From Bimastos eiseni (Eukaryota; Annelida; Clitellata; Crassiclitellata; Lumbricidae): a DNA stretch of 64,000 nt. A program made the position numbers and the translations under genes. The notes beneath the pieces were generated by a model, which saw nothing but the letters and a program-made list of their open reading frames with translations, had not been told where the DNA came from and did no database searches. Shown here piece after piece: positions 191 through 55,535 of the stretch (its first letter is position 1; every line of letters starts with the position of its first letter). The stretch covers positions 2,160,334 through 2,224,333 of the forward strand of contig OY365810.1 in assembly GCA_959347315.1 (NCBI GenBank), in the 5' to 3' direction.

Positions 191-253
191 CTGAATCTTC
201 TTTGGGATTTTGGTTTGGCTTATTTTGATTCTCAGCACTGTTTTCAATTGCAC
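191..253 (-). CDS. Gene A exon 11: asparagine-rich linker
   Basis: 21 codons starting [15 protein letters not shown] with an ATTAAAG acceptor and a GTAAAG donor, phase 1. It is identical to gene B 15768-15830. The next exon of gene A (the equivalent of 15224-15364) would lie left of the window. Confidence 0.65.
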
Positions 254-6200: not shown

Positions 6201-9200
6201 TGTCAGGAGAGTCATTGACAATTATGTGGCATCTTTAAATAAACCTCATAAAAGAATTGCAAACAAAGTGTATGAATTTATATTGATACATTTTTTAAGC
6301 TCGAAATCTTCATAGACTTAAAATTTTGTTCAAAATCATGGATAGATTCCCTTTGATGAACTTCGACTCCAATGGGATATGATACAAATGGATTTGACTC
6401 TTAAGAAAAACCTGTCCTCGTCAATAGTAACCAATAATCTGCAAGTGTAAAATCAAAAGGTTTTTGTTTCCATTAATGAGACCAAATAAATGGTCAAATC
6501 AGTATGTAACAAGTATAGTGGTAAAACAGAATGCAGTGCTCAAGGTAATCCCGAACCATAACAAATCATAATAAACAATAAATAACTAGCCTTGCCTTGT
6601 CTAATTATTATTACAGTTGTTACTAATGCATTAATTAATACCAGCTCACATAAAAATGGCATATATTGCAGGATTGCAGTTATCTGTAAGTATCAGGTTC
6701 AATGTTAACTTACCACTGCTGCTTGAATTACCAGTAATCAACATGGCATTAACTGTGCATGGTACTTCTCGTAAGTAGCAAGTAGCCTTGCATAGATACT
6801 GCCCTTCTTTCTCAACCTTTAAACTCCGATTGTTGGATACTGTATGCGAGTCTTCTTTGTTGTACCATTTGTATCGACAAGACTGACTACTGGTATTGGC
6901 TGAGCAATTTACCACTTCGCCAATGCTTTTTACAGACATGGACAGCCCATCATAGATATCTGAAAAAATGTCAGATAAACATGAATTAGTTATTAAAACA
7001 AATATTAATTACATCTGTAAGTGGGTGAATGCAAGTTTGTTGGTTATGGAATTGGTCTATCAAATGCCAAGTCCAGAACTTCACTAGGATGACAATGGTC
7101 GACTGATCAGAGCGCCTGTTTGTAGCACAGAGAGTTGGCCTACTCATAATTGCAGCATCTGCGAAATGAGCCAAGAGAACTCACAAAATGTTCTGAATTA
7201 GGCTGACTATAAAATTAGTAAAACACTGTTTATAGAAAAATCAATTGGCATTGAATGAGACAATCAAAGACATATCAACATAAAAAATCCCTGAGGTTAA
7301 CTTACTTCATAAAACATCTGTATGATACTCGGCGTATTTCCGTACATCTACAATAATTGTGGTGTGTAACTCATGCAATTTATACTCACATGACAGTTTG
7401 ACAGACTCCGAAGAGCAACTGTGTTTTGATGTTCTGAATTTTGTAGTCTGACACTCGAACAAAGCTTTGTCCTCAATCAGGTCGGCTTTCACTGTCACAT
7501 TGTACATATATAAACCAAGCGACTGTTGTTCCTTTGTAACATTCTCGATGATGGACTTATTCCCTCCCAACTTAATCCACTTCAACACTGGATGAATGTT
7601 GCCATGGTAAGAAATACTACACGATAGATACAGTTCTTCAGGCTGTATTCCACAAGGATTGTGTCCAATGACTCCATCTGGATTTATATCCGAATTGCAG
7701 ACTGGTACATCATCTACAATGAATAAATCAATCAATATACTTTATTGATATATTAACATAATTTTTTATGCACATATTTTTGATAGTCATATACATTGGC
7801 ATCAAACAGAAAACCCAAAGGAACAATAGCTTCCGCTACCAGGGTTGACCTATTTACATCAATTATTAATAAATTATAAAAGTCTTCTGTCATCATATAC
7901 TGTAAATTGGTTCAAATAAATCTATCGCTATGGTGTTTACAATTCATCATTTAAGTGTCTTCAACATAGTCGTCTGCAAAATATTGGATAGGATATAACC
8001 AAAATCTGCAATTTTCAGATGATAGCCAACACAAACAGATTTATATGCCCCCACCCCTGCCTTGTGTGTATAATTTTTATTGCATTTCTAACAGGTACAC
8101 ATAGAGCTGTACCGATATCACTTTTGCTGATTATGCCGATACCGATTATTGGCGATTATTTATTTGCCGATACCGATTATAATGGCCGATACCAATAAAC
8201 GATTCTTTCAGTGTGTTTTCCAAAGATGTACTGTGACTCACTCTGCACAACGGCTATAAGCAGATGTTGGCAAGATAGCGTCTAGTAACAGTCAGGTAAT
8301 CCTTATGCCCAGGTAAACCAGCTATAATGGTATGGGTACACGCGGAAAAGGGTCTCTGTCGCACCATGCAAAAGTAGAATGAGCATTGTAAGCTATCATT
8401 ATCACTATTTTCTTCAAACATTGAAATAATTTTATGATGGGAACGTTTCTGGTAGCAAATTCAGACATACAATCACTTTTATTCTTCTACCAAAAACGCC
8501 ACTTCCTCCCCAGACAATGCCACTTTGGCCTGAAATAGGGCGTCAGTGGTGGTGACCGGTGGGCAGCCAGCAGGGACGAAATAGCTGCCCGTGGTAATTA
8601 AGCAGGTACTGTGACTCACTCTACACAACAGATATAGCCTTCGAACATTATTCCACGGTTTAAATACGAGAGCTCAATGCTACTGGGTGGTCTGAAGTAT
8701 CCATACAATCTCAACCGTTGGGCTGGCTACAAGCTATGGGAATGAATTACGCAACTCGGGTTACACGCTAAAGGGGCTAAACACTGAAAACAATATTATA
8801 AAATAAAAAAATTTAATTTTTAATATCGGCACAGATTATCATTGTCGATACCCAATATGTCTGATAATCGGTCCAATTAATCGGCTGGGCAATTAATAGG
8901 TACAGCTCTAGTTACACATGCACAGGTTTAACCTATAACACCTTTCATCCACTATTCATGTCTTCAAATTACCACATTAATTTCTTTACTTGGCCTAAAC
9001 ATGTATGAGTAGAAACAACATACTAAGTTCTACAATTGCCATTTGAAATAAATATAAATATACAAATTTAATTTCATTCAGTTAGTTCTGATTTAGTTCT
9101 TATTTTCGATTTCCATTGGTTCAACTAAACATATAATCTGACTTCGGTGTTTTAATGCTCGCATTAAGAATAACAAGCACTGAAGAAATGTTAGGTCAAG

Positions 9201-10688
9201 AAAACAAGGCAATGCAGAAATATTGAGACACAAAGACAGCTTTAAGAGCAAGCTTCCAAAGAATTTCTATAGATACAGAGTACTGCTAATAATTAATTGT
9301 ACATGTAGTCTAGTCATATATTTTATACAGCACCTATTCAAAACAGGCACATCACAGTTTCTCAAACTAGTGCGCCCCATCTACCTGATAACCTTGCATA
9401 GTTGAACTCAAAATGGCTTACCTAAGACAATCAGCTGAGCAGACCAAATGTTCCCCGTTCCACCATCGTCCTGACATTCATATCGTCCTGCGTACTCTGG
9501 CTTCACAGACTTAATCACTAAATTGTATGAACCGTTTGATGAATTTTTGTCAAGTGCAAAATCTTCTTCATAGTCTTCATAGAACTTTTCAAAGGCATAG
9601 ACAGACTTCCGCTGATGCGCTTCAACCCCAACTGGATAATGATTCCAATGGATTTCCTTTGCTGTTATTGGTGATGAACAGTTGAAATAGGTTGTCCCGT
9701 TCACTAGACTTTCTGAATCTACTGGCTTGACAGTCAGGTCCGACTGCACTAAAATAAGTAACATCGAATCAGAAAGTTAAAGAAGATTTGAACCATTGAT
9801 TAGAGTTGAAATCGCTTTATAGCAACTTAAAAAGTATTCAAATCAGATTTTACTAAAAGATACTACACATTAGTTTGATGCTGATCTACTTGTTAGTGAA
9901 CTGGGTCTGTATATATCAACTCCTACTATATAGTAACACATCTTTTTCTTCTAGTCTACTGCTGATGAGCAGGTTTTGACATGGACGGCTTTTGTCTCGC
10001 CCTCCTTTCTCTCCAGTTCCCACTGTCGTTCGCTCTCCTCTTCGTAGTTGCACACGCTTCTGCATTGTCAAGATCACTCAACAATTTCAATTTTTTCCTT
10101 CCCCATGTTGTCTTCCCCAGCATCCTTCCCTCCAGTACCGTCAACAGCATACCTTTTTTCCAAAATATATGTACAAGCCAGCAGTGTTTCCTGTTTTCAA
10201 TCAATTGTAGCAAAAACTCTCTGTTCTCGCAGTCTGTCCAGGACCTTCTCACTGGATACTTTTTATGCAAATTCTGTCCAACAAATTTTCATCATTTTTC
10301 CTGCAAGTCCACATTACAAACGCAACTACTCTCTTTCTATCTGCCAGCTTCACTGTCCAGCACTTTGTAGCATACGTTGCCACTGGCCATATCAGGGTTT
10401 TAATTAGGCTTTTCTTCAGCTGATATTCATGTCTCCTTTTAACATTCTTTTCTTTTCCACTGCTATTATGCTTCTGAGGTCTTTTCACAAAATTCATATT
10501 GTACTACATATGTAGCAGATTGATATAGAGCAACAAACACACGTGAAAGTAAAATATGCTAATCAATCGAGGTTTAAAATTACCAAGCTCTTAGCATGAT
10601 TTCATAACAACGTACCTTCCTGATGACACCCAAGCAATAGGGTCAACAATGTCACCCCTAATTGAACTACAGCAGGTATTGTTCCCAT
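191..10688 (-). CDS. Gene A: Ig-Ig-Ig-TM-NHL receptor, partial, with premature stop
   Basis: This is a spliced model of ten exons: 10616-10688, 9422-9748, 7306-7713, 6714-6959, 6027-6158, 5190-5312, 4453-4488, 3484-3567, 1594-2403 and 457-480, followed by 191-253; the 3' end lies beyond the left edge. All introns are phase 1. The order is signal peptide, V-like Ig domain, second Ig domain, short third Ig domain, transmembrane helix, cytoplasmic linkers, NHL-type beta-propeller, acidic linkers. It is the tandem duplicate of gene B. The second Ig exon ends with an in-frame TGA two codons before the splice site, so the transcript would encode a secreted two-Ig protein or be degraded, although all downstream exons are intact. 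It could be a young pseudogene, a soluble decoy or an allele-specific lesion. A cell-surface recognition role is inferred from architecture; the ligand is unknown. Confidence 0.8.
457..480 (-). CDS. Gene A exon 10: 8-codon micro-exon
   Basis: Encodes DCQNVKTP between an ACGTAG acceptor and a GTATGG donor, phase 1 on both sides. The sequence is identical in gene B. Its support is splice-site and phase agreement only. Confidence 0.45.
1380..1568 (-). repeat. tRNA-derived SINE in gene A intron
   Basis: The 5' end at 1568 reads as a degenerate Leu/Ser-type tRNA head with box A TGGCCGAGCGG and a decayed box B (GGATTTAACTC), followed by CCTTGAGCAAG, a core word shared by many marine-animal SINEs. 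It begins 26 bases downstream of the NHL exon. The same insertion sits in gene B, so it predates the duplication. The 3' limit is approximate. Confidence 0.65.
1594..2403 (-). CDS. Gene A exon 9: NHL-type beta-propeller
   Basis: One 270-codon exon with an ACAG acceptor and a GTATAC donor. It contains repeated blade-like blocks of the NHL/YWTD type: [52 protein letters not shown] and [18 protein letters not shown]. The latter two are close to the NHL consensus of hydrophobic-xV-x-G-xIxVAD. About five to six blades fit the length, as in TRIM-NHL proteins, but there is no RING, B-box or coiled coil. It lies after the membrane helix, so it should be cytoplasmic. Confidence 0.85.
3484..3567 (-). 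CDS. Gene A exon 8: acidic linker
   Basis: 28 codons rich in threonine, asparagine and acidic residues, starting GTTEDNPTITP and ending PVNENP. It is conserved in gene B at 19827-19910 with the same phase and ends. Confidence 0.78.
4453..4488 (-). CDS. Gene A exon 7: 12-codon linker absent from B
   Basis: A micro-exon encoding GELHQENEMNKP with a TTCTTAG acceptor and a GTAAAA donor in phase 1. The surrounding intron sequence is recognisable in gene B near 20770-20820, but the exon is missing there. Confidence 0.6.
5190..5312 (-). CDS. Gene A exon 6: cytoplasmic linker with CPWC
   Basis: 41 codons starting GTFCPWCKTSKAEG, then an acidic segment with LIEDPNQD and ending TNRIP. It contains no tyrosine. 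The CxxC is reduced to CSWC in gene B, so cysteine spacing is kept. Function unknown. Confidence 0.8.
6027..6158 (-). CDS. Gene A exon 5: transmembrane helix
   Basis: 44 codons. A glycine/serine stalk is followed by the hydrophobic stretch ILVVILSFFLVLIALIVL and the basic stop-transfer CKRCKRGRK, so the N-terminus is outside. Flanked by a TTATAG acceptor and a GTATTT donor. Confidence 0.88.
6714..6959 (-). CDS. Gene A exon 4: short third Ig domain
   Basis: An 82-codon exon with a TTTTTTCAG acceptor and a GTAAGT donor. The core shows VVNCSAN, YKWYNK and GQYLCKATC, a compact C2/I-like Ig pattern, plus an extra cysteine pair (CYLREVPC). A serine-rich stalk (NSSSSG) leads to the membrane exon. 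Confidence 0.85.
7306..7713 (-). CDS. Gene A exon 3: second Ig domain, ends in an in-frame stop
   Basis: The domain begins DDVPVCNSD and carries the family motif SYHGNIHPVLKW (cysteine four residues earlier, core tryptophan), then FECQTT as the second core cysteine and extra cysteines near the C-terminus. Compared with gene B there are 12 inserted bases at the 3' end, which introduce TGA at 7307-7309, directly before the GTAAGT donor. Exon length (408) keeps phase 1 on both sides. Confidence 0.85.
8102..8910. mobile_element. hAT-like MITE 1 in gene A intron
   Basis: Ends TAGAGCTGTACC and GGTACAGCTCTA are inverted repeats, flanked by GGTACACA (8094-8101) and GTTACACA (8911-8918), an 8-bp target duplication with one mismatch. 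Gene B at 25978-25985 has the uninterrupted GGTACACA, an empty site. The ends are built of short CCGATA/CCGATT words. No transposase is seen. Confidence 0.85.
9422..9748 (-). CDS. Gene A exon 2: V-like Ig domain
   Basis: This 109-codon exon has a TTTTAG acceptor and a GTAAGC donor, both phase 1. The Ig landmarks are the first cysteine in YFNCSS, the tryptophan in IHW, and the second cysteine in the D-x-G-x-Y-x-C type motif EYAGRYEC. It ends in the G-strand-like SAQLIVL. There are several N-glycosylation sites (NGT, NCS, NSS, NGS). Nine residues differ from gene B, six of them in a stretch just after the core tryptophan. Confidence 0.9.
9960..10480 (-). mobile_element. LINE reverse-transcriptase tail fragment in gene A intron 1
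   Basis: The minus strand encodes a frameshifted C-terminal piece typical of non-LTR elements: [18 protein letters not shown] then, in another frame, [17 protein letters not shown] and [10 protein letters not shown]. Reading frames are broken and there is no endonuclease or full RT. An identical copy lies in gene B at 28193-28713. Confidence 0.75.
10616..10688 (-). CDS. Gene A exon 1: signal peptide
   Basis: The exon starts at an ATG and encodes a hydrophobic leader whose core is [11 protein letters not shown], ending at a GTACG donor in phase 1. The one leftover base joins the next exon to give the junction CHQ-E-V-Q. It lies in a tract that is identical to gene B. Confidence 0.85.
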
Positions 10689-14073: not shown

Positions 14074-14174
14074 TCATTTTACGCACACCACAAAAGTGAT
14101 GGAGTCTTTAGCAAGAAGAAATTCACTTATCTTCATCCAGTTTCTTTGAAATGTAGGACCTTTACATAGGATGT
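14074..14174 (-). CDS. Gene B possible terminal exon
   Basis: After an ATGTAG acceptor, the phase 1 frame runs 33 codons (start [13 protein letters not shown], end FVVCVK) to a TGA. The frame closes gene B at a whole codon number. Composition is not distinctive and other exons could lie between 14175 and 15223. Confidence 0.25.
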
Positions 14175-17100
14175 CTACATTAAAAAGAGCAATTGAAAGT
14201 AAAATTAGATACAGTCCATACATACATATCAAATGAAATATCAATATTATAATGTGACAGAAGTAGTACCTGTATGTATAACGTGATGGGTGCCACATAA
14301 CCCAAGGGCTCAAAAACTTCAGCATCTTAAAGTCCCTCAGTGTATCAACTACAAAATTGTATCTCAAACTCTCCACCCTGCTTCATTCATAACCTCCTCA
14401 TTGTTCAACTGCCAATATATACTCATTCCTCTTCAATTCTCAAACTATGCAATTGCTCAATAATCTATGCTACATCAGCTCATTGAAACAAACGCCAGAA
14501 CTAAAACTGCTACAGATGAAATTCATCTAACCCTTATTGGTTCAGTCTCATCGTTTTCGTTTTTCACCTAAAACATCACAACAGTTTCATAATAAAGGCC
14601 ATTTAGTTAAATTCAAAGTGAATGCATAAGTTAAATAAGCCTACAGTGCATACTTCTGAGCATGAAACCTTATCATTCAAAATCCAGTATTACTTCTTAA
14701 TGACCTAAATAATATTTCAATTTCACTCATGACAGTCATCTTTCCTCTCTAGTCCTCTCCACATCACTTACTTGCTTACAAACCCCACTCTAGAATAAAT
14801 CGAATGTGTTACGAGTAAAAAGTACATAATTAATGTTGTACTTTGTCTCAAACTGTAAGAATGGAGTGCCGTATTCAGCATCGGTCTTAGAGCAACAATT
14901 CCATAAATTTCTTCCACTGGAATATGGTGATACCACCATTTGAATAGAAACACTAAACATCCAAGACATTTGTCAGCTATCAATGGAAATCCATTGATTG
15001 AATACATACACATATGTGCGCAGGCCTACCAGTGGGCAATCTTCAAGTTTATGGTTTACGGTGCATGTTGTTTTGCTAATTAATGTAGTGATCTAGTTCT
15101 AAATGACATTATAACAGAGAGCACAGCACCACTGCCCTTACATTGAAGCACTATATAAAACTAATGTCCAATAACAATGACAGTATTTAAACTAAGTGTT
15201 CAAAATCTTAGACAGTCAATTACCTCGACTTCCCTCCAAGGTTTGCTGACTTCCCTCCAAGGTTTGCTGACTTCCCTCCAAGGTTTGCTGACTTTCGACT
15301 TGCTGTGCATCACTAAACACATCTTCTTCCTCTTCATTGTCAGAAATATTGTATTCTGTTACACCTTCAACAGAGACACATAGTCACCATAATTTCATAC
15401 TAAAGTCTGGTTGTACAACAAATACTTAAACAAATAGTAACTTTACCTATGTAATATATAATGCCTGAGTTTCTAAAAACACATGGCATCAATGTCACAC
15501 TGAGGGCTGGCCAATGAGCATTTCTTTGCATAGCCTTATTAGGGCTCCAAATTGGAATACACTCCTGCACGGGTTTGTGTTGTTATGCTGATTGGGCTGC
15601 AGTTTGTGGAAAAAACATTGCGATATACAACAATTCTAATCTGAAAGCATGTCATCTATAATCACAGCAAAAAACCAGTTTTTTTAAACTACAAAAACAC
15701 AACAGTTGAAGCCTTTCACAGGACAATTATAAAAGAATAGATAATAATAAAATTAACAACTCTTTACCTGAATCTTCTTTGGGATTTTGGTTTGGCTTAT
15801 TTTGATTCTCAGCACTGTTTTCAATTGCACCTTTAATGGAAGTAAATTAAAATAAAATGAAAATTTAAGAAAAATTAACTACATTTAATTGCAAATCACA
15901 ATTTGAGTACTTCAATTCCCCAAATTGTCAGTTACACAGCTTGATTAGCAAACCTACAAGGAAACTACGTCAAAGCTTTAAGAAGGCTAATAAATCACAA
16001 AAATGTGACCGGCTGGCAGAAAAGATACCATACCTGGGGTTTTGACATTTTGGCAATCTACGTTCGTTTTTTAAAGCCACATCAAATGGTGAAAATTTCA
16101 TGAAGATATTTTATGCCATTCCACAGATATGCACTTTGGAATGAGACATGGTGAAATGCATAAATTCCGAGAAAATTTACCATGAAAAGCTCCTATACTA
16201 TAATATGCAATTAATTAAAAATCCTTCAAGTTTTACAGATGAAACTCTGCAGATCTATCATAATGTATTGATGAATGTTATTAGTCAGCACTCTCCTACA
16301 CTTCTCCAAATGTTCATTTTACTTCAAGCTGCCTTGATAAGTAAGAAATATTACCTGGTTGTGGCATACCCACTTATGATACCTTTTACCCAACATCTAA
16401 TTATTTGATTTTTTTGCAACAAAAATGCCATGATTTTGAAGTTCAACATCAGTAAGGTCCAAAACAACAATAATACCGGTACAGTTTTTCATAAAAAGTC
16501 ATTTTCCAGACGAAAACTGAAATAACTCCATAAATAGCAATCCCACAAATGCCACCTTTTCTGCCAGCCGGTCACAAATCATGATCATTTTCGCAAAAGC
16601 TAATTAATAGCAAAAGTGGGATTTCTGGTCTTGGAGGTCAGAACATTGAAAGGTGATCAGATGTTGCAGCAGGTGTTACAAATAAATTTCAAAGATTAGC
16701 ACAGCTTCAGGGTGATATTTAGCTGCAATAATACTGCATTAAATTAATCAATATCTACAGAGGTTAATTATTAACCTCAATATTTGGCACACAAAACTCA
16801 ATAAAACTATCTGTGCAATGCAAAAGAGTATATTCAGCGATAAATTATTCTATCTTTGGACAAGATAGCAGACAAATAATTGCAAACAACCATTACGGGA
16901 AAAAGACAAAAGCTTAATGACACACAATACAATAAAACTGTCATTTGATATTGCCCTTATTACACTTAAGTTCAGAAGTGCATACACGCCTCGACGGCGC
17001 AACTGCAGATGTAATGCAGAGCAATTGTGTGCAAAGGACTTGCTCAAGGTCCCTACACAGTGACGCCCAGGACAAGAGTTAAATCCGCTCACTCAGTGCA

Positions 17101-20100
17101 CACTAAGTGTTACGGGCCGATCGCTCTAACCGCTCGGCCACCATGCCACAATATGTCACAAAGCATGTATACCTGTTCTGTGTTTTTGAAGTCTGAAGAC
17201 CATAAACCTGTTATTGTCTTCTTTGATATCAGCCACAAACATCCGACTGTTTGCTTCATCCAGACAAATTCTCTGTGGACGACCTAATTTATCATTATCC
17301 AGCAAAAACACTTTGGAAGGTTCCAAAGTTCGACTCATTATCAACACACGACTATTTTTCTGATCAGCAACAAATATACACCCATCACTGTTCACCACCA
17401 AATACTTAGGAAACTTCAACATTCCACTGAATGATTGGATAACAGTTCCATTCCCATCAAGTCTAGAAACCTTGTGCACCATTCTCTGTTCATAACTGAC
17501 TACAAATTGATCACCGCTTAGCTTGAGTGCATGAAACGGATGAAAATCAGAAGGTAAATTGACCTTACAAAGATATTCCCCATCAGCTGAATATTCTGTC
17601 AAAGCACTTCTTTTCCAGTCACTTAGAATAACAGTCTGGTCATGAGTAACAGATAAAGTACCACCGCCATCTTCTATGGGCCATTCCCTGATGACCTTTC
17701 CACTTGCATCAATCTTGTAAATTTTTTTTGAAGATGATATATACAGAGAACGATCTGCTTGACAAGATACCATATCTAATGGATTGTCAAGACCCATCAC
17801 TACAACTGAATGCACAGGACTGAATGATATGGCCTGAAACACCTTCAGTTCTGATGTTCTCTCAAATGCAACAAACAATTCTTTGTTTAACACTGTCAAG
17901 CCACAGATACCAGTTTTCTCATCGCTTGGACGAGGAAAACTTTGAACATGCAGTAATTCTGGATGCATTCCTGTAAAATAATAAAATGCAAGTAATAAAA
18001 TATGTAAAAGATCAAATGGCAGACAGCCATGTGATATGAGGAAAAGGATACGAATTGTGGGCAGCACACAGTATGAAACATCATGTCAAGGCATCATTGA
18101 TTTGACAAAGCAATGATAACAGAACTTATCAAGTAACAAGAACGAAACTTTGAGGATTATAAACAGCCATGAAAGCAGTAATTATTGGGACAACTATCCT
18201 TGCTCAATACTATGTGTTACAGAAATGCATAACAAAGGTATTAGCATCATCTAGTGCAAGAGTGGGCACTGGGCAACCTACTGCCCAGCCCGCGGAAATG
18301 TTTAATGCGGCCCACGAGATTTTAAATCTCGATTAATATTTGCGAAAAATGTACATAATTTTTTGTAAAATCCTTTGAAAATTTATAATCCCAGTGTCAA
18401 AATTTCAAATTATTAGGCCTATAATAATATCAATTAATTACTATTCATAATTTTAAGAAATATTAAGATCATCACAGCAAATAATATAAAAATTAAGCTG
18501 TATATTGTCGTAATTATAGTGAATTTTCTAGCACACCCACTGCACCTTGGTTTCTAATCACTTCCAGAAATTTTTGATGCATTGTTTGTATAGTTTGCTG
18601 TTTAAACTATTTGAAATTAATTAATGTTAAGCAAATAATTTTGAATAGTTTGTAGTCTGAATAGTTTGTCGTTTGAAAACTTAAAGCAGAGAAAAATTGA
18701 TGAAGAGTGTACAACATTCAACAAAGACTGGACAGCAAAGTATGTTATCATTGACATACAAGACGCAGCACAGTTGCTTATCTTTATTAGTGGGATTGAT
18801 GCAAATTTTGATTTTGTGCCTATAGCCAAATACTGCACAAAGTAGTAAAATATTGTATTTGAGATACATGTATATTCATCTCAACTTGATACCTAATGAC
18901 TATTCTTAATATATTTAATTCTTTAATCAACTTCTTACAAGTGAGCTTTCAACTATTTTAATCAACCCAGCTGCTTACAAGTGGGCCTTCAACTATTTTA
19001 TCACATTTAATTGAGAAAAGACAGAAACTAGAAATGAGAAAAGGACATCATTTGATGTGAACACAACTGCCAATCAGGTATTCTCAAAATAAAATATGGG
19101 ACTGGCAGCATATAAACTAGAACAGCTATGGCTCAGTCTCAATCTTTTTCTTCAATAGGTCTCTGTCTATGGAATGTGCTTTTGCCATCTGTTCGCTCTT
19201 TTGAGCGAACAGATGCTTCTGAGCGGTTCACCCTACTAGAGGCGCTTTACAGATGCTCAAATACAATACAATAATATGTGCCCAGAACACTTATGAGCAT
19301 ATCATAACAAAAGACATTGCCTTCATTCTTTTGTTTTTCTGTTTTCTTCCGTTTCCCTGTAACTAGAAATAAGTTGGGCAAAAAAATACAAGCCCTGAAG
19401 ACTTTTCTCAACTAAAAATATATTTTTCAACTTGGCATGGTAGCATTGAAATGTTACCCTGTCTGTATGGACTAATTATAGGCATCTTACCATGCTCCAG
19501 TGAAGCTTCATGACTTAAGAAGCATTAGAGTATCATTAACTGTTAATACAACCAATATCTTTCTATTTGATATATATACATACAATTGTAGCCAAGAAAC
19601 ACATATTAAATTTTGCCTATTCAAGCACCTGGTGGACAAATCAAGAACAAGGAAATCTCAGTCTGCTAATAGTTTTATATCACATTTCAAGAATGCATTT
19701 GTCTCTGGAAATATCACATCAGGAAAATAGTCTCACCTTTAATTTATATACTTCATATTGGTGGGTAAGTGATTAAGATTGAATGAACAAAGAAAAGTCT
19801 ACTACATGTGTTAACGAGATCGATACCTGGCTTCTCATTCAGGGGAGTCGCACTTCCATCATCAGCTTGTTCATCATCAGGAATAACAATTGCGTTGTCT
19901 TCTGTTGTACCTTTAAGACAAAAATATTTACCTTTGCTTCATATTTAGGTCTGGTTGAACCATTTCGCAAAGGTGACAACTTATCTGGGATTAGTCAATA
20001 ATTTAATCAAATAAAAAGAGTCATCAGTATCATAAATGTAATAATTTTTAATTTATCTATTATTTTAATTGAGGCAAGTGTAATATTAAACTCTAAGAAA

Positions 20101-23100
20101 CAAAAATAACACTGGATGTTATTACTGGATAACTACAAGATCAGGCTTGTCCTCCATTTTAATTATTTGTTTTACAATCTGAAAAACCTAAATAATACAC
20201 CCTACTAAACGCAGACGTGTCTAATACTAGTGCTACTACACGGAAAATCAATCACTCAAATTTATGTGTTTATTATTTACAATATATTTTAATACTGATT
20301 TTTAACCTTCTTGCATAAAGTGTTTAAAACAAATTGCAATAATCATCTGTGAAAGAACATATAATAATTCAGCAGTACATCTTAGGTGATAACGTGAAAA
20401 ATATTTACAAAAGTTGACATAATTTAAGAAAATCTATTTAAACTTTGACTGCAATAATCCAATACCGGAAATTTGAAGTAAAGGATGTGCTTCTTGAGCA
20501 GAATTTTCAGAAACTTTATTTGTGCCATCTTTCACTATTTTCTCTTCTTCTATTTGATAGTAAATGCACCCAAATGAACAAATAAACACAAAAGAAATTA
20601 TTTCCAGGTATATCCACAGAAAATTGAATCAGATTCAACATACTGTTGGTCAAATATTGCTGCAATGACCACTTCCAAATAAATGTCACCTAGAAAGACA
20701 TAAATCTCTTGTAGCCGACTTTAAGCTCAGTGAATATTCAAACAGAAACAAATTAATTAGGTCTGTGTCTAAAAGCTGAAGAACAGGCATTTAAATATTC
20801 TCATCAAATCAATTCAAAATAAATTATTGCACTATGTGGAAGCAACTTGAAAATATTTTCTCAATGGACAAATATAGCTGAACAGAAGGTGATTCCAACA
20901 GGAAGGTCTTATACATCATGGACTCACGTTGATGCAGCGCATACGAGGATTTCAGCTAGAAGAAACAGTTAGACAAACTAGTGCATGGGATGGACTAGTA
21001 TTTTAAAGATGACTTTGCATATAATAATGTACAACATCGTCAAAGTCGATCAGACAATAGAAAATCACTCTTCAATGTAATGTTCTAATATCTTAGAACC
21101 ATAGCAAAACTGTCATACCAGGAATTCTGTTATCATTAAGTAATGAAGAGGCATCTTTCATTGGATCTTCATTTAGCAAAATGGCTTCTTCTACCTGTGT
21201 CTCTTCTGCGTTCGATGTTTTACACCATGAGCAGAAAGTACCTAAATACAGAAAAAAACAAGAATTCCAATTAAATACAAAACTTGTTAGTTACATAATA
21301 AAAATAACTGTTGTCTGTAAATATGATTCAGAGAAATGTGTATAATATAATTGAAAATGAGGAATAAAAATAAAGTTAGACAAAATTCACAGTTTTTTGT
21401 CAATTTCAAGAATGTATCTGTCTCCGACATTGACTCTGTCCAGACCATAATAAAACTAGAGTAATTAACTGTAGCAATGTTGCCTAAGGATTCTGGAGAC
21501 CTTTGATGTGTATAAGCGGTTCAATAAAGTACATACTTACTTTTATAATATGTACACAAACCCTATTCAGACACAATGCCCTGATATGCATCAAAAGACC
21601 AACAAAATCATCACAGAAACCGACTGCAATTTATTATTCACATGCACCTGTGTAATATGAGGATAAAAACACATATAAGTCACAATTGAACATCTATGCA
21701 TTACCAAAGATAGAATTCATCAGTCTGTGACTAACTTCCTATTCAATAATTTGACAATAACCGTAATAGAGAAAGTTATTGATGACTGACCAACCAATTA
21801 ATAAAAAATGAACGAGAAAGCACAGAAGGGTTGGCAACTTGGCAGAACACAAAGTGAAGAGCCCAAAAGGGAGCAAGGGACCGCTAGCAGGGACACTCAA
21901 ATAACAAAATTTATTGGAGTATTATGCAAGACAATGTTAAAGAAACTCAATTAGTTAACTAACAGCTTTATAAAAAAATAAGGGTAATATGACTGTACAC
22001 GAGAGGCATCCAAATGACTCAACTTTCATGTTAGGAGGGATATTTTTTGAGTCTTAGGAGGGAATATCTTGCCTTAATGCACTTGTAACCAGAGGGTTTG
22101 CCTCCATCACTCAGAGGGATTGACGCCCCTACTGTACACAGATAAAGAAAAAACTAGGAAGCTAATTGACAGCCTGAGCTAGATAAATAACTCAATAAAT
22201 GAGAGATCCTACAGTTTCAAGAAATATTTGTTTACATTTATTTTTAAACTAAGAAATGGCACTTAACTAGCTTAGACCCAAATACATCCATACAGCATTA
22301 GGTGATTACTTTTCTGATGAATTGTCAGTGATCAATAACAATATTTGGTTATGGTCAAAAGTCACTTTGAAGATGGACAAAAGGTTATTATTATGTACAA
22401 TTAGCAGAGCTACAATCTATGTAAGATACCAACACAAAGGAAAAGATATGCTTAGTAACAACACGGCAACCAATTATAAGTAGATAATTAAACTATCTTC
22501 AGTGGAAGTGGTTAATACCTCCCTGTCTTCGTTTCTGCCTGTGATGCATGAAAACAGTTACCACAATAACAATGATGCACATGAAGATGACGAGAAGAGC
22601 AACCAGCACAACTATTGTAAAATCAGAACCAACTTGTGCTGCCGTATCTATGATTAAAGGTAATATAAATAAAATCAGATCACAACACATGTCAGAATAG
22701 TCATTGATATTTTATGTAGCATCTTTAACCCCTTTAGCGGCAAACCCGATTATAGTTGTCTTTGACAATTGACCTTTATATGGCAAACCCGATTATAATC
22801 ATCTGGACGGTGAAGCATACATACATATATACATACATGTATATACATATGTATATATATCTATGTGTTACATTAAAATATACATATATACACACACATA
22901 CATATATATATATATACACATAATATATACATATATATATACACGTATATACATATACATAAAAATACATATATATATATGTTACATATATATATATACA
23001 ATAATACATGTATACTTAAATACATATATGCATATATACCTACATATATACATACATTTATATACATGCATGAATACATATATACATGCACAATGCACAT

Positions 23101-26100
23101 ATACATACATATATATATGTATACATACATATACATACATATATATAGATGTCATACATACATATATCTATATCTATGCATATATAAAATTTGCTTGCCG
23201 TAAAAGGGTAGGTTTTAAAAATTTGACTTGCCGCTAAAGGGGTCAACCAACCTCTTAATAGAATTACAACAACTATATGAATTTATATACATATTATTAG
23301 CATGAAAATATCTGTCTCATCAGTTATCTGAGTCCCATGCAGTCATCTAACTGAGATAATTTTCAATATCAAACTGTAGCACCATCTAAAATACAGTCTA
23401 TTCATCATCTGCCTCAACTGTGATATTCTCTTTCTATTCACTTCTGAGATATTCCTCACATCTCAGTCTCTTTATCATTCTGTCCTGCGTTCCAGTTAAT
23501 GCTGTGTCCATATGGAGCCCATGCGCAAATCGAGATCCACTTTGGTCTTTCAGGAGAAAACCTGCCTTCCTTCATCAATACTAATCCTCAACATGGCATC
23601 TGCATGTGCTACTTCAAATGCTCAGTTACTTCATTAATGAGCCAAATAAATAATTAGATCAGTAAGTAGAATATAAAACTCTGAGACTCTGAACATACAT
23701 GCCATCTATCAGCTGTCGAAGGGAATCCATTGGTTGGTTCCACGCTTATGCGTGGGCCCACCACTGATGGCTCTTTTCAACTTACTAAGCATAGTTTTAC
23801 TAATAGATATATTGACTCTCACACTTGACATGATTAACGCCAGCGCAGAGAGCACTACATGAATGTTTGATTACATTACATAAAATGCCGAAACAAAGTG
23901 CAGCACCAAAGGAAACTCAAACATCGTAACAAATCATAATAAACAACAATAAATGACTCCCTAACTAGTATAAAACCAGTCAGTAAACAATTGACATAAT
24001 ATAACACTTTTCATCTGTCTTTTCTATTGCTCTATGGAACAATCATCCCAATCCTCTCTGGAGACACATAAATCAAACCTCAAGACACATCATTTTAAAC
24101 AATCATATGACTACTGCTGACTTTTAAACTTATGTACACCATCCTTTCCTTTGACCTCCCAATAACTTATTATTATTGCTGTTATTACTGTCTTACTTAA
24201 TACCGGCTCACATTACAGGTGAAAATGTCATACAACATAAAATTGCATTTATATGTATTTATCAGGTTCAGTGTTAACTTACCAGAGATGGTTGCATTAA
24301 TCAACATGGCATTAACTGTGCATTGTTCATCTCGTAAGTAGCAAGTAGCCTCGCATAGATACTGTCCTTCTTTCTCTAGTTTTAAAATCCGATCGTTGGA
24401 GACATTCAGTGAGTTTGCTTTGTCATACCATTTCCATTTGTACTGACAAGATTGACTACTGGTGTTGGCTGAACAATATACCTCTTCGCCAATGCTTCTT
24501 ACAGACACGTACGGCTCATTATAGATGTCTGAAAAAATGTCAGAGAAATAGAAATTAGTTATTAAAACAACTAATAATTACATCTGTAAGTGGGTGAATG
24601 TAAGTCTGTTGGTTATGGAACTGGACTGTCATCTGCCAAGGCCAAGGCTCACAGCTCCACTAGCACAATGATGGAAGACTGGTTAGACCATTTGTCTTGC
24701 AATACGGAGAGATGGAAAATGGGTTTGAGATGTTCACAATGTAGTGATCTAGAGCAAGTCTTTAATTAACTCACAACTGCACAGTGCAAAAATTGATTCT
24801 AAGTCATCAGGTAGAAGATTCAATCATTCATTGATTAATGAATCTAAATAGCATCCATCAAGGACTATCCAACTTAAAAGAAGAACAGCTTTAAGTTCAG
24901 TGACGAAAGTTTCAGGTAGTGTCCCAGGGTGTAGACACAGCTCTAGAAGGAGACCATTCTAGGTCACTTCAACCTACCACAGTAAAAGCTCGACTACTCA
25001 TAGTTGCAGTACATGCGAAATGAGCCAAGAGAACTCCCAGAATGTTAAGCTGACTATTAAATTAGTAAAACGCTGTTGATAAGAAAATCAGTTGGCATTT
25101 AATGGAACAATCGAAAACATATTAACTGAAACAAATGCCTCAGGTTAAGTTACCTTTATCATACTCGGTGCATTTCCGTACATCTACGATAATTGTTGTA
25201 AATAGCTCATGCTTTTCATACTCACATAACAGTTTGACCATCTCTGAATAGCAACCGTGTTTTGACGTTCGGAATTTTGTAGTTTGACACTCAAATGAAG
25301 ATTCGTCCTTGATCTCGTCGGCTTTTATGGTTAAATTATACGTAAATCGACCAAGAGACTGTTGTGCCATAGTAACATTCTCGATGATGGGCTCATTTCC
25401 TCCCAACTTAATCCACTTCAACTCTGGAGGAATGTTGCCATGGTAAGAAATACCACATGATAGATGCAGTTCTTCATCTGGCAGTATTCCGCAAGGATTG
25501 CTTCCGATAACTCCATCTGAATTTATGTCGGAATTGCATTCTGGTTTATCATCTACAATCAACCAATCAATCAATCAATATACATTGTAGTTTATTGATC
25601 ACCATATCAACATAATTTTTTATGCACATAGTTTTGATAGTCATGTTCATTGGCATCAAACAAAAACCCAAAAATACATGAGGTTTTGCGACCAGGGTCG
25701 CCCTATTGGCATATTTACATCAATCATTAACAAATTATAACAGTTGTTCGTTATCAAATACTTGGTTGAAATTGATTGAAATAAATCTATCGCTACAGTG
25801 TCCACAATTCACCATTTAAGAAGTCTCTTCATAGCATAGTTGTCCACAAAATATTGGATAGGATATAACCAAAAACTACAATTCATTTTCAAATGGTACC
25901 TCATAAAGTCCAACACAGATAGATTTATATGTGCCCAACCTGGCCTTGTGTGTATAATTTTAATTGCATTTCTAATAGGTACACAAGCACAGGTTTAACA
26001 AATAATACTATTCTTGTCTTGAAATTCTCATATCAAATTCTTTATTGGCCTAAACATGTAAGAGTAAAAATAACACACACAGTCATATGATAGCCATTTT

Positions 26101-28921
26101 AAATCAACGTACATATACAAATTTAATTGTAGCCTATATTTCTTTCATTAAGTTTTAGTTCGGTTCTTATTATTATAATTCATTTAGTTGAACTGGACAT
26201 TTAATTATTTGACTTACGTGTCTTATAGCTTGTGTTTAGAATTACAGGCACTGAAGAAATGTAAGGTAAAGAAAAGAAGGCAACATGGGAATTACGAGAC
26301 ACAAAAATAGTAGACAAGCAGGTATTGTTTGTTCAAAATTTTCCTGCCTACATCACATGTTAGAAAGGTCATTACACAGTGCTCCTTCTAGTATGACCAA
26401 GTAAATTAAACTTCAACATGCTCACATGTTAGAAAGGTCATTACATTATTAGTCTCTGATTCGGTCAAATATCGCTCAGCTTCAAATTCAAGCCTCCAAG
26501 GAAATCATAGATATACAAGGTACGGCTAAAAAGTGCACATGTAATTGCAAAAAGTCACCTTGTGCTGTCAGTTCTTGGAACTCTAGCGATTGCAGCGACA
26601 AAACTCCTCAAATGCTTTCTTTTTGAAGTCGCATCTCTTAATTCCTCCAGGTTCATTCCAGTTCTTTCGTGTATCTCATTCATCCATTTTTCCTTGGTCG
26701 CTCCCGTTTTCTCTATCCTTCTCCGCACGCCAATGTCATTTCATTTTCTAATCCAACTGATCGAATGACATGTCCGAAGAACCCCAGCTTCTTTCTCATC
26801 CCAGTTTGTTTTAGCGATTCATCATTCTCAACTCCAATCTCCATGCGCACCCTTTCATTTGCTTATTTTCTCCGTCCACGATATTCTCTGCAACTTCCTC
26901 CATATCAAAATTTCGCATGCGATAATCTTTTTCTCCATGTTCTATGTCATTGTCCAAGTCTCTTAGCCATATATAGTACTTTAGGGAAAATCATTGCCCT
27001 CACTATCCCCTTGTAGTACTGCTAAAAAATGGACATGTAATTGCAATTTTATATTTATATTAGAGCTGTACCGTACATTCGCTTCGTATTCGCTTCGAGG
27101 CCGAATAGTGGACCTAATAACTATTCGGTATTCGGCCGAATACTTGCGGTCGGGCCGAATACGAATAGTGGTCACGTTTCATCCGCTTCTGCATATACGG
27201 CGGCTGCTGCAGCCACTGCGAGTGGACTGAAATAACTTTCACATTAACACAATAGCTGCTGTTGCCCGAGTCTGCCGCTGCTGCTACTTTCTGCTTTGAG
27301 ATCTTAATACTTAGAATACTTTTATTGCTAGTTATTAGTTACCGCAGACTGACTGGAGGCTGCAAAACTTTAAATGTTTTAAATGTTTACTATTCTGTAC
27401 TACATTTTGTAAAGTAAAAGTTCAGTGTACCTTCGACATTATGAATGTTTTTACTTTTAGATCTATTTTATACACTAAACACTATTCGTATTCGTATTCG
27501 ACCGAATAGTCGGTCCCGTTATTCGTATTCGGCCGAATAGTGATAATCACGTATTCGGTACAGCTCTAATTTATATAGCACCTATTCATGAGACACCTCA
27601 AAGTGTGCCCCATCTACCTTATAGCCTTGCATAGTTGAACCTAAAATGGCTTACCTAAGACAATCAGTTGAGCAGACCGAATGTTCCCCGTTCCACCATC
27701 GTCCTGACATTCATATCGTCCTGCGTACTCTGGCTTCACAGACTTAATCACCAAATTGTATGCACCGTTTGATGAATTTTTATCAAGCTCAAAATCTTCT
27801 TCATAGTCTTTATAGAACTTTTCAAAGGCATAGACAAACTTCCTATCATACGCTTCAACCCCAACTGGATAATGATACCAATGGATATCCTTTGCTGTTA
27901 TTGGTGATGAACAGTTGAAATAGGTTGTCCCGTTCACTAGACTTTCTGAATCTACTGGCTTGACAGTCAGGTCCGACTGCACTAAAATAAGTAACATTGA
28001 ATCAGACAGTTAAAGAAGATTTGAATCATTGGTTGGAGTTGAAATCGCTTTATAGCAACTTAAAAAGTATTCAAATCAGATTTTACTAAAAGATACTACA
28101 CATTAGTTTGATGCTGATCTACTTGTTAGTGAACTGGGTCTGTATATATCAACTCCTACTATATAGTAACACATCTTTTTCTTCTAGTCTACTGCTGATG
28201 AGCAGGTTTTGACATGGACGGCTTTTGTCTCGCCCTCCTTTCTCTCCAGTTCCCACTGTCGTTCGCTCTCCTCTTCGTAGTTGCACACGCTTCTGCATTG
28301 TCAAGATCACTCAACAATTTCAATTTTTTCCTTCCCCATGTTGTCTTCCCCAGCATCCTTCCCTCCAGTACCGTCAACAGCATACCTTTTTTCCAAAATA
28401 TATGTACAAGCCAGCAGTGTTTCCTGTTTTCAATCAATTGTAGCAAAAACTCTCTGTTCTCGCAGTCTGTCCAGGACCTTCTCACTGGATACTTTTTATG
28501 CAAATTCTGTCCAACAAATTTTCATCATTTTTCCTGCAAGTCCACATTACAAACGCAACTACTCTCTTTCTATCTGCCAGCTTCACTGTCCAGCACTTTG
28601 TAGCATACGTTGCCACTGGCCATATCAGGGTTTTAATTAGGCTTTTCTTCAGCTGATATTCATGTCTCCTTTTAACATTCTTTTCTTTTCCACTGCTATT
28701 ATGCTTCTGAGGTCTTTTCACAAAATTCATATTGTACTACATATGTAGCAGATTGATATAGAGCAACAAACACACGTGAAAGTAAAATATGCTAATCAAT
28801 CGAGGTTTAAAATTACCAAGCTCTTAGCATGATTTCATAACAACGTACCTTCCTGATGACACCCAAGCAATAGGGTCAACAATGTCACCCCTAATTGAAC
28901 TACAGCAGGTATTGTTCCCAT
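14074..28921 (-). CDS. Gene B: Ig-Ig-Ig-TM-NHL receptor
   Basis: The spliced model has exons 28849-28921, 27655-27981, 25154-25552, 24283-24528, 22519-22647, 21119-21241, 19827-19910, 17173-17970, 16034-16057, 15768-15830, 15224-15364 and, tentatively, a terminal exon 14074-14174. All introns are phase 1 and the sum is a whole number of codons (about 835 residues). No frame break is visible. The order is signal peptide, V-like Ig, second Ig, compact third Ig, transmembrane helix, CxxC linker, acidic linker, NHL-type propeller, acidic tail with a triplicated heptapeptide. This is likely a type I receptor whose propeller acts as a cytoplasmic docking surface; that role is inferred. It transcribes away from gene C and toward gene A. 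I know of no named family with this order, though TRIM-NHL proteins supply the nearest propeller. Confidence 0.82.
15224..15364 (-). CDS. Gene B exon 11: acidic tail with three SQQTLEG repeats
   Basis: 47 codons with a TTGAAG acceptor and a GTAATT donor. An acidic block [16 protein letters not shown] is followed by three exact copies of a 21-bp unit encoding SQQTLEG. It includes one tyrosine (TEYNIS). Confidence 0.75.
15225..15287 (-). repeat. Three tandem 21-bp units within gene B exon 11
   Basis: The plus-strand unit GGTTTGCTGACTTCCCTCCAA occurs about three times without a mismatch, keeping frame. Exact identity suggests recent expansion. The limits given are approximate. Confidence 0.85.
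15768..15830 (-). CDS. Gene B exon 10: asparagine-rich linker
   Basis: 21 codons identical to gene A exon 11, phase 1 on both sides. Confidence 0.65.
16034..16057 (-). CDS. Gene B exon 9: 8-codon micro-exon
   Basis: Encodes DCQNVKTP, identical to gene A. Phase and splice ends fit, but independent support is thin. Confidence 0.45.
16959..17147 (-). repeat. tRNA-derived SINE in gene B intron
   Basis: The copy of the gene A SINE, at the same place relative to the NHL exon, with box A TGGCCGAGCGG and CCTTGAGCAAG. Confidence 0.65.
17173..17970 (-). CDS. Gene B exon 8: NHL-type beta-propeller
   Basis: 266 codons, nearly identical to gene A exon 9 but four codons shorter at the start. Blade motifs [18 protein letters not shown] and [15 protein letters not shown] are intact. 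A long upstream open stretch in the same frame (to about 18067) is intron read-through; the ACAG acceptor sets the start. Confidence 0.86.
18250..18840. mobile_element. Possible hAT-like insertion in gene B intron
   Basis: Begins with AGAGTGGGCACTGGGC and CAGCCCGCGG / GCGGCCCAC, reminiscent of hAT non-autonomous elements, and is absent from the equivalent gene A intron (near 2720-2780). Right end and target duplication were not found. Confidence 0.35.
19186..19215. repeat. Perfect hairpin in gene B intron
   Basis: CATCTGTTCGCTC and its exact reverse complement are separated by TTTT. No counterpart was noticed in gene A. Confidence 0.8.
19827..19910 (-). CDS. Gene B exon 7: acidic linker
   Basis: 28 codons starting [18 protein letters not shown] and ending PLNEKP. 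Homologous to gene A exon 8; the 12-codon exon between the two in gene A is missing here. Confidence 0.78.
21119..21241 (-). CDS. Gene B exon 6: cytoplasmic CxxC linker
   Basis: 41 codons starting [14 protein letters not shown], acidic, ending DNRIP. Homologous to gene A exon 6, with the same acceptor and donor positions. Confidence 0.8.
22001..22131. mobile_element. MITE family GAGGCGTC, copy 1 (gene B intron)
   Basis: About 130 bp with ends GAGAGGCATCC and GACGCCCCT between direct repeats ACTGTACAC (21992-22000, 22131-22139). Related to 53937-54089 and 56676-56833. Confidence 0.75.
22519..22647 (-). CDS. Gene B exon 5: transmembrane helix
   Basis: 43 codons. The hydrophobic stretch [19 protein letters not shown] is followed by basic MHHRQKRRQ. 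It is strongly diverged from gene A in sequence but equal in design. Confidence 0.88.
22729..23242. mobile_element. piggyBac-like MITE filled with a microsatellite
   Basis: Ends CCCCTTTAGCGGCAA and TTGCCGCTAAAGGGG are inverted repeats, preceded by TTAA (22725-22728) and followed by TCAA (a mutated TTAA). Internally, 22815-23185 is an ATAC/TATG microsatellite; the open frames in it are artefacts. Gene A has TTTAAATAAACCTC at the equivalent point, an empty site. Confidence 0.75.
23675..23785. repeat. Dispersed repeat, copy 1
   Basis: Contains CTCTGAACATACATGCCATC, TTGGTTGGTTCCACGC and TGATGGCTCTTTT, matching 60960-61068 in inverted orientation. A diverged relative may lie at 14960-15035. Class unknown. 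Confidence 0.6.
24283..24528 (-). CDS. Gene B exon 4: third Ig domain
   Basis: 82 codons with [15 protein letters not shown] and GQYLCEATC. The extra cysteine pair CYLRDEQC is conserved with gene A. Confidence 0.88.
25154..25552 (-). CDS. Gene B exon 3: second Ig domain, intact
   Basis: 133 codons. Begins DDKPECNSD; family motif [12 protein letters not shown]; second core cysteine in SFECQTT. The exon ends TATGATAAAG before GTAAC, without the 12-base insertion and stop found in gene A. Confidence 0.9.
26550..27016 (-). mobile_element. LINE 3' fragment in gene B intron 1
   Basis: The minus strand encodes RT-tail signatures [26 protein letters not shown] and [12 protein letters not shown] with several stops and frameshifts. 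Absent from gene A. Confidence 0.75.
27061..27568. mobile_element. hAT-like MITE 2 in gene B intron 1
   Basis: Termini TAGAGCTGTACCG and CGGTACAGCTCTA, with a perfect 8-bp target duplication ATTTATAT (27053-27060, 27569-27576). The interior repeats ATTCG and CCGAATA words. Gene A has no insertion near 9318-9330. Confidence 0.88.
27655..27981 (-). CDS. Gene B exon 2: V-like Ig domain
   Basis: 109 codons with the same landmarks as in gene A ([24 protein letters not shown]). Against A I count nine amino-acid changes in 11 base differences and four silent ones. The changes cluster after the core tryptophan (IHW[N/Y]HY, EA[H/Y][Q/D]RK[S/F]). Confidence 0.9.
28193..28713 (-). mobile_element. LINE tail fragment in gene B intron 1
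   Basis: Base-for-base the same as gene A 9960-10480 as far as I can read; same frameshifted RT C-terminus. It predates the duplication or was copied by conversion. Confidence 0.75.
28849..28921 (-). CDS. Gene B exon 1: signal peptide
   Basis: Identical to gene A exon 1: ATG, hydrophobic core [11 protein letters not shown], phase 1 donor GTACG. Confidence 0.87.
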
Positions 28922-38458: not shown

Positions 38459-38806
38459 CGCTGTGCGGAGCTTCTCTGCTAAAATCTCCCATTAACAAAG
38501 CAGTGATTGTGGGTCAACGGATGGAAATGGAATGTCAAACTGGCAATGGATCGATCTTTCGAAAGTGGGAATATCTCCAAACTGGAAGTGTTTCACCAAG
38601 GGCGGTTGCTATAAATGACAACACAAAGATAGCGATGGTTTCGAAGGAATCTGGTTTAGGCTTAGGCCTAAATGTCGGTCGTAAAGGTACCGTGACTCTT
38701 TATTCCAATTCGACAGAAACAAAGAACGCTGGTGTCTACATCTGTCAGAGAGACACTCTCTCAGGATCGACGGAATTTAAATATAGCACTCAACTAATCG
38801 TCTTTG
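38459..38806 (+). CDS. Gene C exon 2: V-like Ig domain
   Basis: 116 codons after TTTTCCAG. The landmarks are [11 protein letters not shown] (first cysteine), RKWEY (tryptophan) and [10 protein letters not shown] (second cysteine), ending [16 protein letters not shown] is shared with gene D. Confidence 0.88.
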
Positions 38807-39099
38807 GTAAGTACACTTGTGAGTGGATCATACTTTTAATTAAATACTTCTAGATATTAATAGTACGCAATTAGTTACCAAAGAAGCTGTCTCTACATAA
38901 TCTTATAACCACGACGTTCACATGCATTTTAAAGCGATAGCCTATTTGCCATTAGGCCTACAGCTACTGGCATATTCATGTAATATTATTGCAACAATCG
39001 AAATTGTGCTATTTATCCTACTCTTGGTAGGCCTATGATTTAATATTTCAGTAAGGGTGCAGAGCATTAATTTTCATTTAAGATATGCTACTGAATTCA

Positions 39100-39174
<75 letters not shown>

Positions 39175-55471: not shown

Positions 55472-55535
55472 ATGAGACCATTCGAAATAGTGTGGATATT
55501 GGCTCAAGTGCTGCTCAATAATTATTTTGGACTAG
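55472..55535 (+). CDS. Gene D exon 1: signal peptide
   Basis: ATG then RPFEIVWILAQVLLNNYFGL, a short hydrophobic leader, with donor GTAAGC in phase 1. Confidence 0.8.

Follow-up and report, generated by a model that had tools for sequence, protein, structure and literature searches.

We describe here a gene on the minus strand of a 64,000-nucleotide stretch of DNA from the annelid Bimastos eiseni (GenBank assembly GCA_959347315.1, contig OY365810.1, forward-strand positions 2,160,334 to 2,224,333), hereafter called the window. The gene, termed gene B, extends from 28921 to 14548 and has a predicted product of 804 residues. Its exons code, in this order, for a signal peptide (SP), three immunoglobulin (Ig)-like domains (Ig1 to Ig3), a transmembrane (TM) segment with a basic stop-transfer sequence, the linkers C1 to C3, an NHL-type propeller and a tail. 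We consider it probable that the whole chain is one gene, encoding a type I Ig receptor with a sorting linker and with a cytosolic six-repeat NHL propeller that would dock a partner.

The exon chain and its tandem copy

As a gene model, the predicted Ig-TM-NHL combination is well supported by a chain of phase-1 exons, by the recurrence of each of its pieces in a second copy, and by insertions and deletions (indels) of codon size. All ten internal exons of gene B are in phase 1-1 and have a length divisible by three, and the same holds for the nine later exons seen in a tandem copy, gene A. A first-pass annotation, made from the sequence alone, had described this regularity together with the common orientation of the three Ig exons, the TM exon with its basic stop-transfer and the propeller exon of about 800 bases; the exon coordinates from 28921 to 17173 bear this out. 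It had also stated that the layout is repeated in gene A, which indeed keeps every exon down to C4, linkers and TM included, in the order of gene B. To the earlier list of exons we add C1, C2 and C3 between TM and propeller and C4 after the propeller. Both copies retain the GT and AG borders. Large introns split the Ig genes of the window, the DNA of which has the look of animal DNA.

In a first gene model the Ig2 exon ended at 25154. Gene A has no GT at this site, whereas a GTGAGTAT donor at 25226 is common to the two copies (TTAT/GTGAGTAT in gene B, TCAT/GTGAGTAT in gene A); the border was therefore moved to 25226, where the donor most likely lies. For the 3' boundary at 14074 given in the first-pass annotation no coding reason was found; the frame in 14074-14382 gave no Pfam match, and we place the stop tentatively at 14548.

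The coding indels between genes A and B in the aligned blocks measure 3, 6, 6, 15 and 12 bases, all five multiples of three; among intron indels the same is true of 9 out of 31 with a length of three bases or above (9 of 54 when shorter ones are included). A sixth listed indel, a 2-base gap at C2, corresponds to the acceptor border, the exons being of equal length in frame, and so was excluded. The TM exons (129 and 132 bases) lie outside the aligned blocks and do not enter the count; they are nearly unrelated in sequence, and each is hydrophobic and closes with basic residues. C1 and C2 are 82% and 87% identical between the copies, compared with 73% and 76% for their flanking introns (p 0.04 each).

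The propeller exon

The nearest solved relatives of the propeller exon are NHL propellers, namely the designed Pizza, PknD, Thin, TRIM71 and Brat. Sequence matches in the PDB were obtained with Pizza7H (8e-13), PknD (2e-10), Thin (4e-9) and TRIM71 (5e-9), and the best matches from animals are TRIM-NHL proteins. The first 14 rows of a Foldseek search are all TRIM-NHL structures. VIA-align also put a TRIM-NHL protein in its first row, and its rows are mostly tied propellers of many families; they were taken as support for the propeller fold only. The NHL half of the domain check proposed in the first-pass annotation came out positive: the Pfam NHL profile scores 21.7 bits with gene B (cut-off 20). 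The single NCBIfam match, ScyF_NHL (0.006), is weak and far below its cut-off, and Pfam TEN_NHL (0.035) is below cut-off as well. Six repeats were laid out by eye and then aligned, and the exon probably folds as one closed propeller.

The stop-free stretch around the propeller is 927 bases long; when the window was resampled 60 times by a Markov model, one strand each time, no such stretch exceeded 555 bases. When the exon was compared with the window by tblastn, only the copies in genes A and B rose above noise. Directly after the propeller exon, at 17150-17050 of the minus strand and in the block common to gene A, a tRNA-like sequence (resembling a short interspersed nuclear element, SINE) was seen by eye; ARAGORN called no tRNA in the window.

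The Ig domains

Ig1 matches the Pfam profiles Ig_3 (6e-4) and V-set (9e-4), both under the gathering cut-offs. Its best PDB match is FCRL5, with a value of 2e-11 that is summed over the FCRL5 Ig domains and in which no single stretch passes; further matches, at 0.001 and above, are to pIgR and antibody domains. The invariant C, W and AGxYxC of this domain are present in all four Ig genes of the window (A, B, C and D). Ig2 matches Ig_3 (6e-4) and I-set (0.002), again under the cut-offs, and an Ig domain of VEGFR2 in the PDB (E 0.003). The Pfam matches of Ig3 are weak (Ig_3 0.07, Fascin 3e-4, both under the cut-off). An AlphaFold2 model of Ig3 has seven strands, with a predicted local distance difference test (pLDDT) of 80 and a predicted template modelling score (pTM) of 0.70. 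Ig domains make up many of its top Foldseek matches; other sandwiches occur among them, and no match has E <= 0.001.

Membrane topology and the linker

The gene B product has by sequence the features of an Ig-superfamily type I receptor: outer Ig domains, a signal peptide, one TM segment and a basic stop-transfer. The signal peptide and the TM segment were read by eye; a relaxed hydropathy scan found the TM exons of genes A, C and D and missed that of gene B. A basic cluster directly follows the TM segment, and the exon preceding it has none. Eight N-glycosylation sequons occur in the 300 outer residues, none in the 107 residues of the linker, one in the 266 of the propeller and one in the 74 of the tail. 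The single TM segment, the position of the basic cluster and the crowding of sequons on the Ig side together place the propeller inside the cell, and the protein is thus predicted to have type I orientation with a cytosolic propeller.

Acidic residues abound in the linker, which carries a CxxC beside the membrane in both genes. Three [DE]xxxL[LI] motifs are present in the gene B linker, a number that was reached in 0 of 2000 shuffles, and where gene B has DASSLL, gene A retains a motif of this kind, DARPLL. Judged by known signals of this type, the motifs are likely AP-2/clathrin sorting signals. A scan for immunoreceptor tyrosine-based inhibition motifs (ITIM), which covered the linkers of both genes and the tail of gene B, revealed none, and NPxY was also absent from these parts. 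By eye there is one tyrosine in the linkers of gene A, none in those of gene B and one in the tail of gene B, too few for an immunoreceptor tyrosine-based activation motif (ITAM). Since neither ITIM nor NPxY is found in linkers or tail, the propeller is the only sizeable inner domain and likely carries the output.

A mosaic of two copies

The divergence between genes A and B is uneven. DNA identity is 98.1% upstream, 98.8% in the non-coding DNA around SP and Ig1 and 95.4% in the Ig1 exon; it is about 83-84% in Ig2 and Ig3, like in their introns, and 99.4% in the NHL exon, the flanking introns of which are 96.0% identical. The synonymous divergence (dS) is about 0.4 in Ig2 and Ig3, 0.08 in Ig1 and 0 in NHL.

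The two propeller exons (17970-17173 and 2403-1594) differ at 5-6 sites, depending on the alignment, and none of the changes is synonymous. From the intron rate 6.7 synonymous changes were expected versus 0 observed (P 0.001), and 24.7 nonsynonymous changes versus 6. Purifying selection was considered as the cause of the 99.4% identity and set aside, because synonymous changes are also depleted. The Ig1 exon (27981-27655 and 9748-9422) differs at 15 of 327 positions versus 14 of 1195 in the introns (p 2.8e-4), about four times more. Five synonymous changes were found there versus 0.8 expected, and nonsynonymous sites are raised too. Diversifying selection on Ig1 was likewise rejected; with synonymous sites also raised, an exchange of blocks fits better, and the Ig1 exon is likely an imported block. 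The simplest reading of the alignment is that the pair would be a mosaic, with ends that were exchanged or copied recently and a middle that diverged long ago.

Weighing the single-gene reading

Several observations count against one gene with the structure proposed here. None of the three Ig exons reaches its Pfam gathering cut-off, Ig3 being the weakest. With 19.1 bits the propeller of gene A is just under the NHL cut-off, and the structure model of the propeller has a low pLDDT of 45. Constraint is not evident in C3, which is 77% identical between the copies (introns 76%), with 17 nonsynonymous and 2 synonymous changes. The low divergence of the propeller is not clean evidence of selection, because it includes zero synonymous changes. 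In gene A the linker has one acidic di-leucine (reached by 191 of 2000 shuffles) and YPLL (380 of 2000), and these sorting motifs taken alone could be due to chance. The exon borders were picked by eye with the reading frame in mind, and the regularity of phase and length is therefore partly a matter of choice; that both copies permit this regularity is not. The splicing of the gene B exons into one transcript is itself predicted from the DNA.

Two alternatives use part of the same evidence. The better of them, which we regard as unlikely, treats the propeller exon as an optional cassette, such that most receptors would have a short sorting tail and only a minority the propeller. Because all internal exons are symmetrical (1-1), any skipping would keep the frame; nothing argues directly against this idea, although the two copies of the exon are both intact and differ very little. 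Somewhat less likely still are two genes with two promoters, i.e. one for an Ig-TM receptor and, downstream of it, one for an independent cytosolic NHL protein that would be translated from a Met just inside the propeller exon. In both copies the exon has this Met as its second codon and a G stands at -3; the intron upstream of the exon (19827 to 17970) is large. However, an AG acceptor and a T-rich tract lie directly before the propeller exon in both copies, the exon is in the same phase as the others, and C4 follows in the same phase. Furthermore, C1-C3 would have to be the 3' end of the receptor gene, yet each of them has a donor and no stop.

Comparison with known systems

The first-pass annotation had found no named family for an Ig-TM-NHL receptor, and within the collections searched this still holds. 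The full-length protein gave no match at E 0.001 in a set of 5.8 billion proteins (7994 candidates scored), nor did the propeller region at E 0.001 (921 candidates) or the propeller exon alone at E 0.1 (224 candidates); this set may hold few animals, which makes the result weak evidence of absence. No such receptor appeared in the titles and abstracts retrieved by literature searches on the pairing or its kin, with most subscription journals outside their scope.

NHL domains act by protein or RNA binding. The gene B product resembles the TRIM-NHL proteins (Brat, Wech, Thin, TRIM2/3/32/71) in its NHL repeats, in its structure and sequence matches and in the proposed use of NHL as a binding surface; unlike them it would span the membrane and carry outer Ig domains. 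According to a table in PMC2533329, TRIM2, 3 and 71 have six NHL repeats and TRIM32 has five. Wech is described in a passage of PMC4148191 as bridging talin and ILK, partly through its NHL domain, and a passage in PMC4382986 deals with its co-localisation. Pfam matches to RING or B-box were absent from the gene B exons scanned (Ig, TM, C1-C3, C5 and NHL), and hence the product does not qualify as a TRIM protein. An origin of the gene from a TRIM-NHL type with a filamin-type Ig is very improbable, even though the propeller has its nearest animal relatives of solved structure among the TRIM-NHL proteins and a filamin-type Ig precedes NHL in TRIM2, 3 and 71 (a passage in PMC2533329), since the scanned exons match neither Filamin, RING nor B-box, the Ig exons match Ig_3, V-set and I-set (Ig3 also Fascin), and a TM segment lies between Ig and NHL.

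Invertebrate Ig-superfamily type I receptors, for example the polymorphic single-pass TM clusters of snails, have a signal peptide, tandem Ig domains, one TM segment and tandem genes in common with gene B; they differ from it in the cytoplasmic NHL propeller that gene B is predicted to have. The words 'NHL' and 'propeller' are absent from the main text of the snail papers PMC7494358 and PMC10875847. Teneurins and PknD are single-pass membrane proteins with an NHL propeller, to which the gene B exon is similar by sequence in the case of PknD and weakly in that of teneurin. Their NHL domain is outside the cell, whereas that of gene B is predicted inside; neither the EGF/YD part of teneurins nor a kinase gave a Pfam match in the exons scanned. 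Sec12, another of the closest known systems, is a protein of the endoplasmic reticulum without Ig domains. By the tests run, the predicted product of gene B does not qualify as a TRIM, a teneurin or an ITIM receptor.

Neighbouring genes and other features of the window

The window contains two further Ig genes, C and D, in which no propeller exon is visible within the window. Their Ig1 domains are 26% and 25% identical to that of gene B, with the same invariant residues, and Ig2 of gene C is weakly similar to Ig2 of gene B (20%, E 1e-4 for the single pair). The start codon of gene D at 55472 was assigned by eye. Together with the mosaic structure of genes A and B, these neighbours point to a multigene family that may serve recognition (immune or self/non-self).

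Table 1. Positions of the exons and genes in the window.
Feature	Position	Strand	Remarks
Gene B exon 1: start codon, hydrophobic signal-peptide-like stretch	28849..28921	-	by eye; identical in gene A
Gene B exon 2: Ig1, V-like	27655..27981	-	Pfam matches below cut-off, PDB matches, invariant residues
Gene B exon 3: Ig2, C2/I-like	25226..25552	-	Pfam matches below cut-off, PDB match, donor common to both copies
Gene B exon 4: Ig3, likely Ig-like	24283..24528	-	weak Pfam, AlphaFold2 model, Foldseek
Gene B exon 5: TM segment, basic stop-transfer MHHRQKRRQ	22519..22647	-	by eye; different but equivalent exon in gene A
Gene B exon 6: linker C1, CxxC beside membrane, two acidic di-leucine motifs in B	21119..21241	-	70% protein identity to gene A
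Gene B exon 7: linker C2, EAHPLL in B, YPLL at same place in A	20466..20549	-	59% protein identity to gene A
Gene B exon 8: linker C3, acidic	19827..19910	-	48% protein identity to gene A
Gene B exon 9: NHL-type propeller, six repeats, 266 aa	17173..17970	-	Pfam, PDB, Foldseek, repeat layout by eye
Gene B exon 10: tail C4	15768..15830	-	identical in gene A at 253-191
Gene B exon 11: acidic tail C5, three SQQTLEG repeats	15224..15364	-	gene B only; gene A equivalent would fall outside the window
Gene B exon 12: C6, last codons GEKRKR and stop, tentative	14548..14567	-	gene B only
Gene A, tandem copy	191..10688	-	3' end beyond the window
Gene A SP	10688-10616	-	
Gene A Ig1	9748-9422	-	
Gene A Ig2	7713-7390	-	
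Gene A Ig3	6959-6714	-	
Gene A TM	6158-6027	-	
Gene A C1	5312-5190	-	
Gene A C2	4135-4067	-	
Gene A C3	3567-3484	-	
Gene A NHL	2403-1594	-	
Gene A C4	253-191	-	
Gene C, Ig-Ig-TM	38459-42972	+	Ig 38459, Ig about 40149, TM 42853 or 42871 to 42972
Gene D, Ig-Ig-TM	about 55472-58484	+	Ig 55984, Ig about 56980, TM 58350 or 58371 to 58484

Tandem arrays at 44745-45186 and at 63438-63934 match themselves when shifted by multiples of 23 and 168, respectively. The stretch 47845-48211 is an imperfect palindrome (about 370 bases) with a self-complementarity of 72%. The short palindrome TAGGCCTA, which is common in some marine invertebrates, has 19 copies in the window versus 0.57 expected, and TACATGTA is over-represented too.

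Possible function

According to the reading that we prefer, i.e. one receptor gene with an inner propeller, the three outer Ig-like domains would bind a ligand, the likely endocytic signals of the linker would direct the receptor to clathrin-coated vesicles, and in the cytosol the NHL propeller with its six repeats would serve as a docking site for a signalling or adaptor partner. The last step is proposed by analogy with protein-binding NHL domains, and the protein may act in the manner of an adhesion or recognition receptor that carries its own adaptor. Our tentative suggestion, which we hold with less confidence than the gene model itself, is that Ig-TM-NHL could be a new class of recognition receptors that would undergo endocytosis and belong to a multigene cluster of invertebrates; the cytosolic propeller would replace ITIM/ITAM, TIR or kinase tails, and variants would arise by the exchange of exon-sized blocks between neighbours.

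To our knowledge, signalling by invertebrate Ig receptors without tyrosine motifs is poorly understood. The propeller exon is a concrete bait for a partner, and this makes the question directly testable. An inner propeller on an Ig receptor would put a binding surface of the TRIM-NHL kind directly at the membrane and, if this reading is true, would probably relay recognition to partner proteins.

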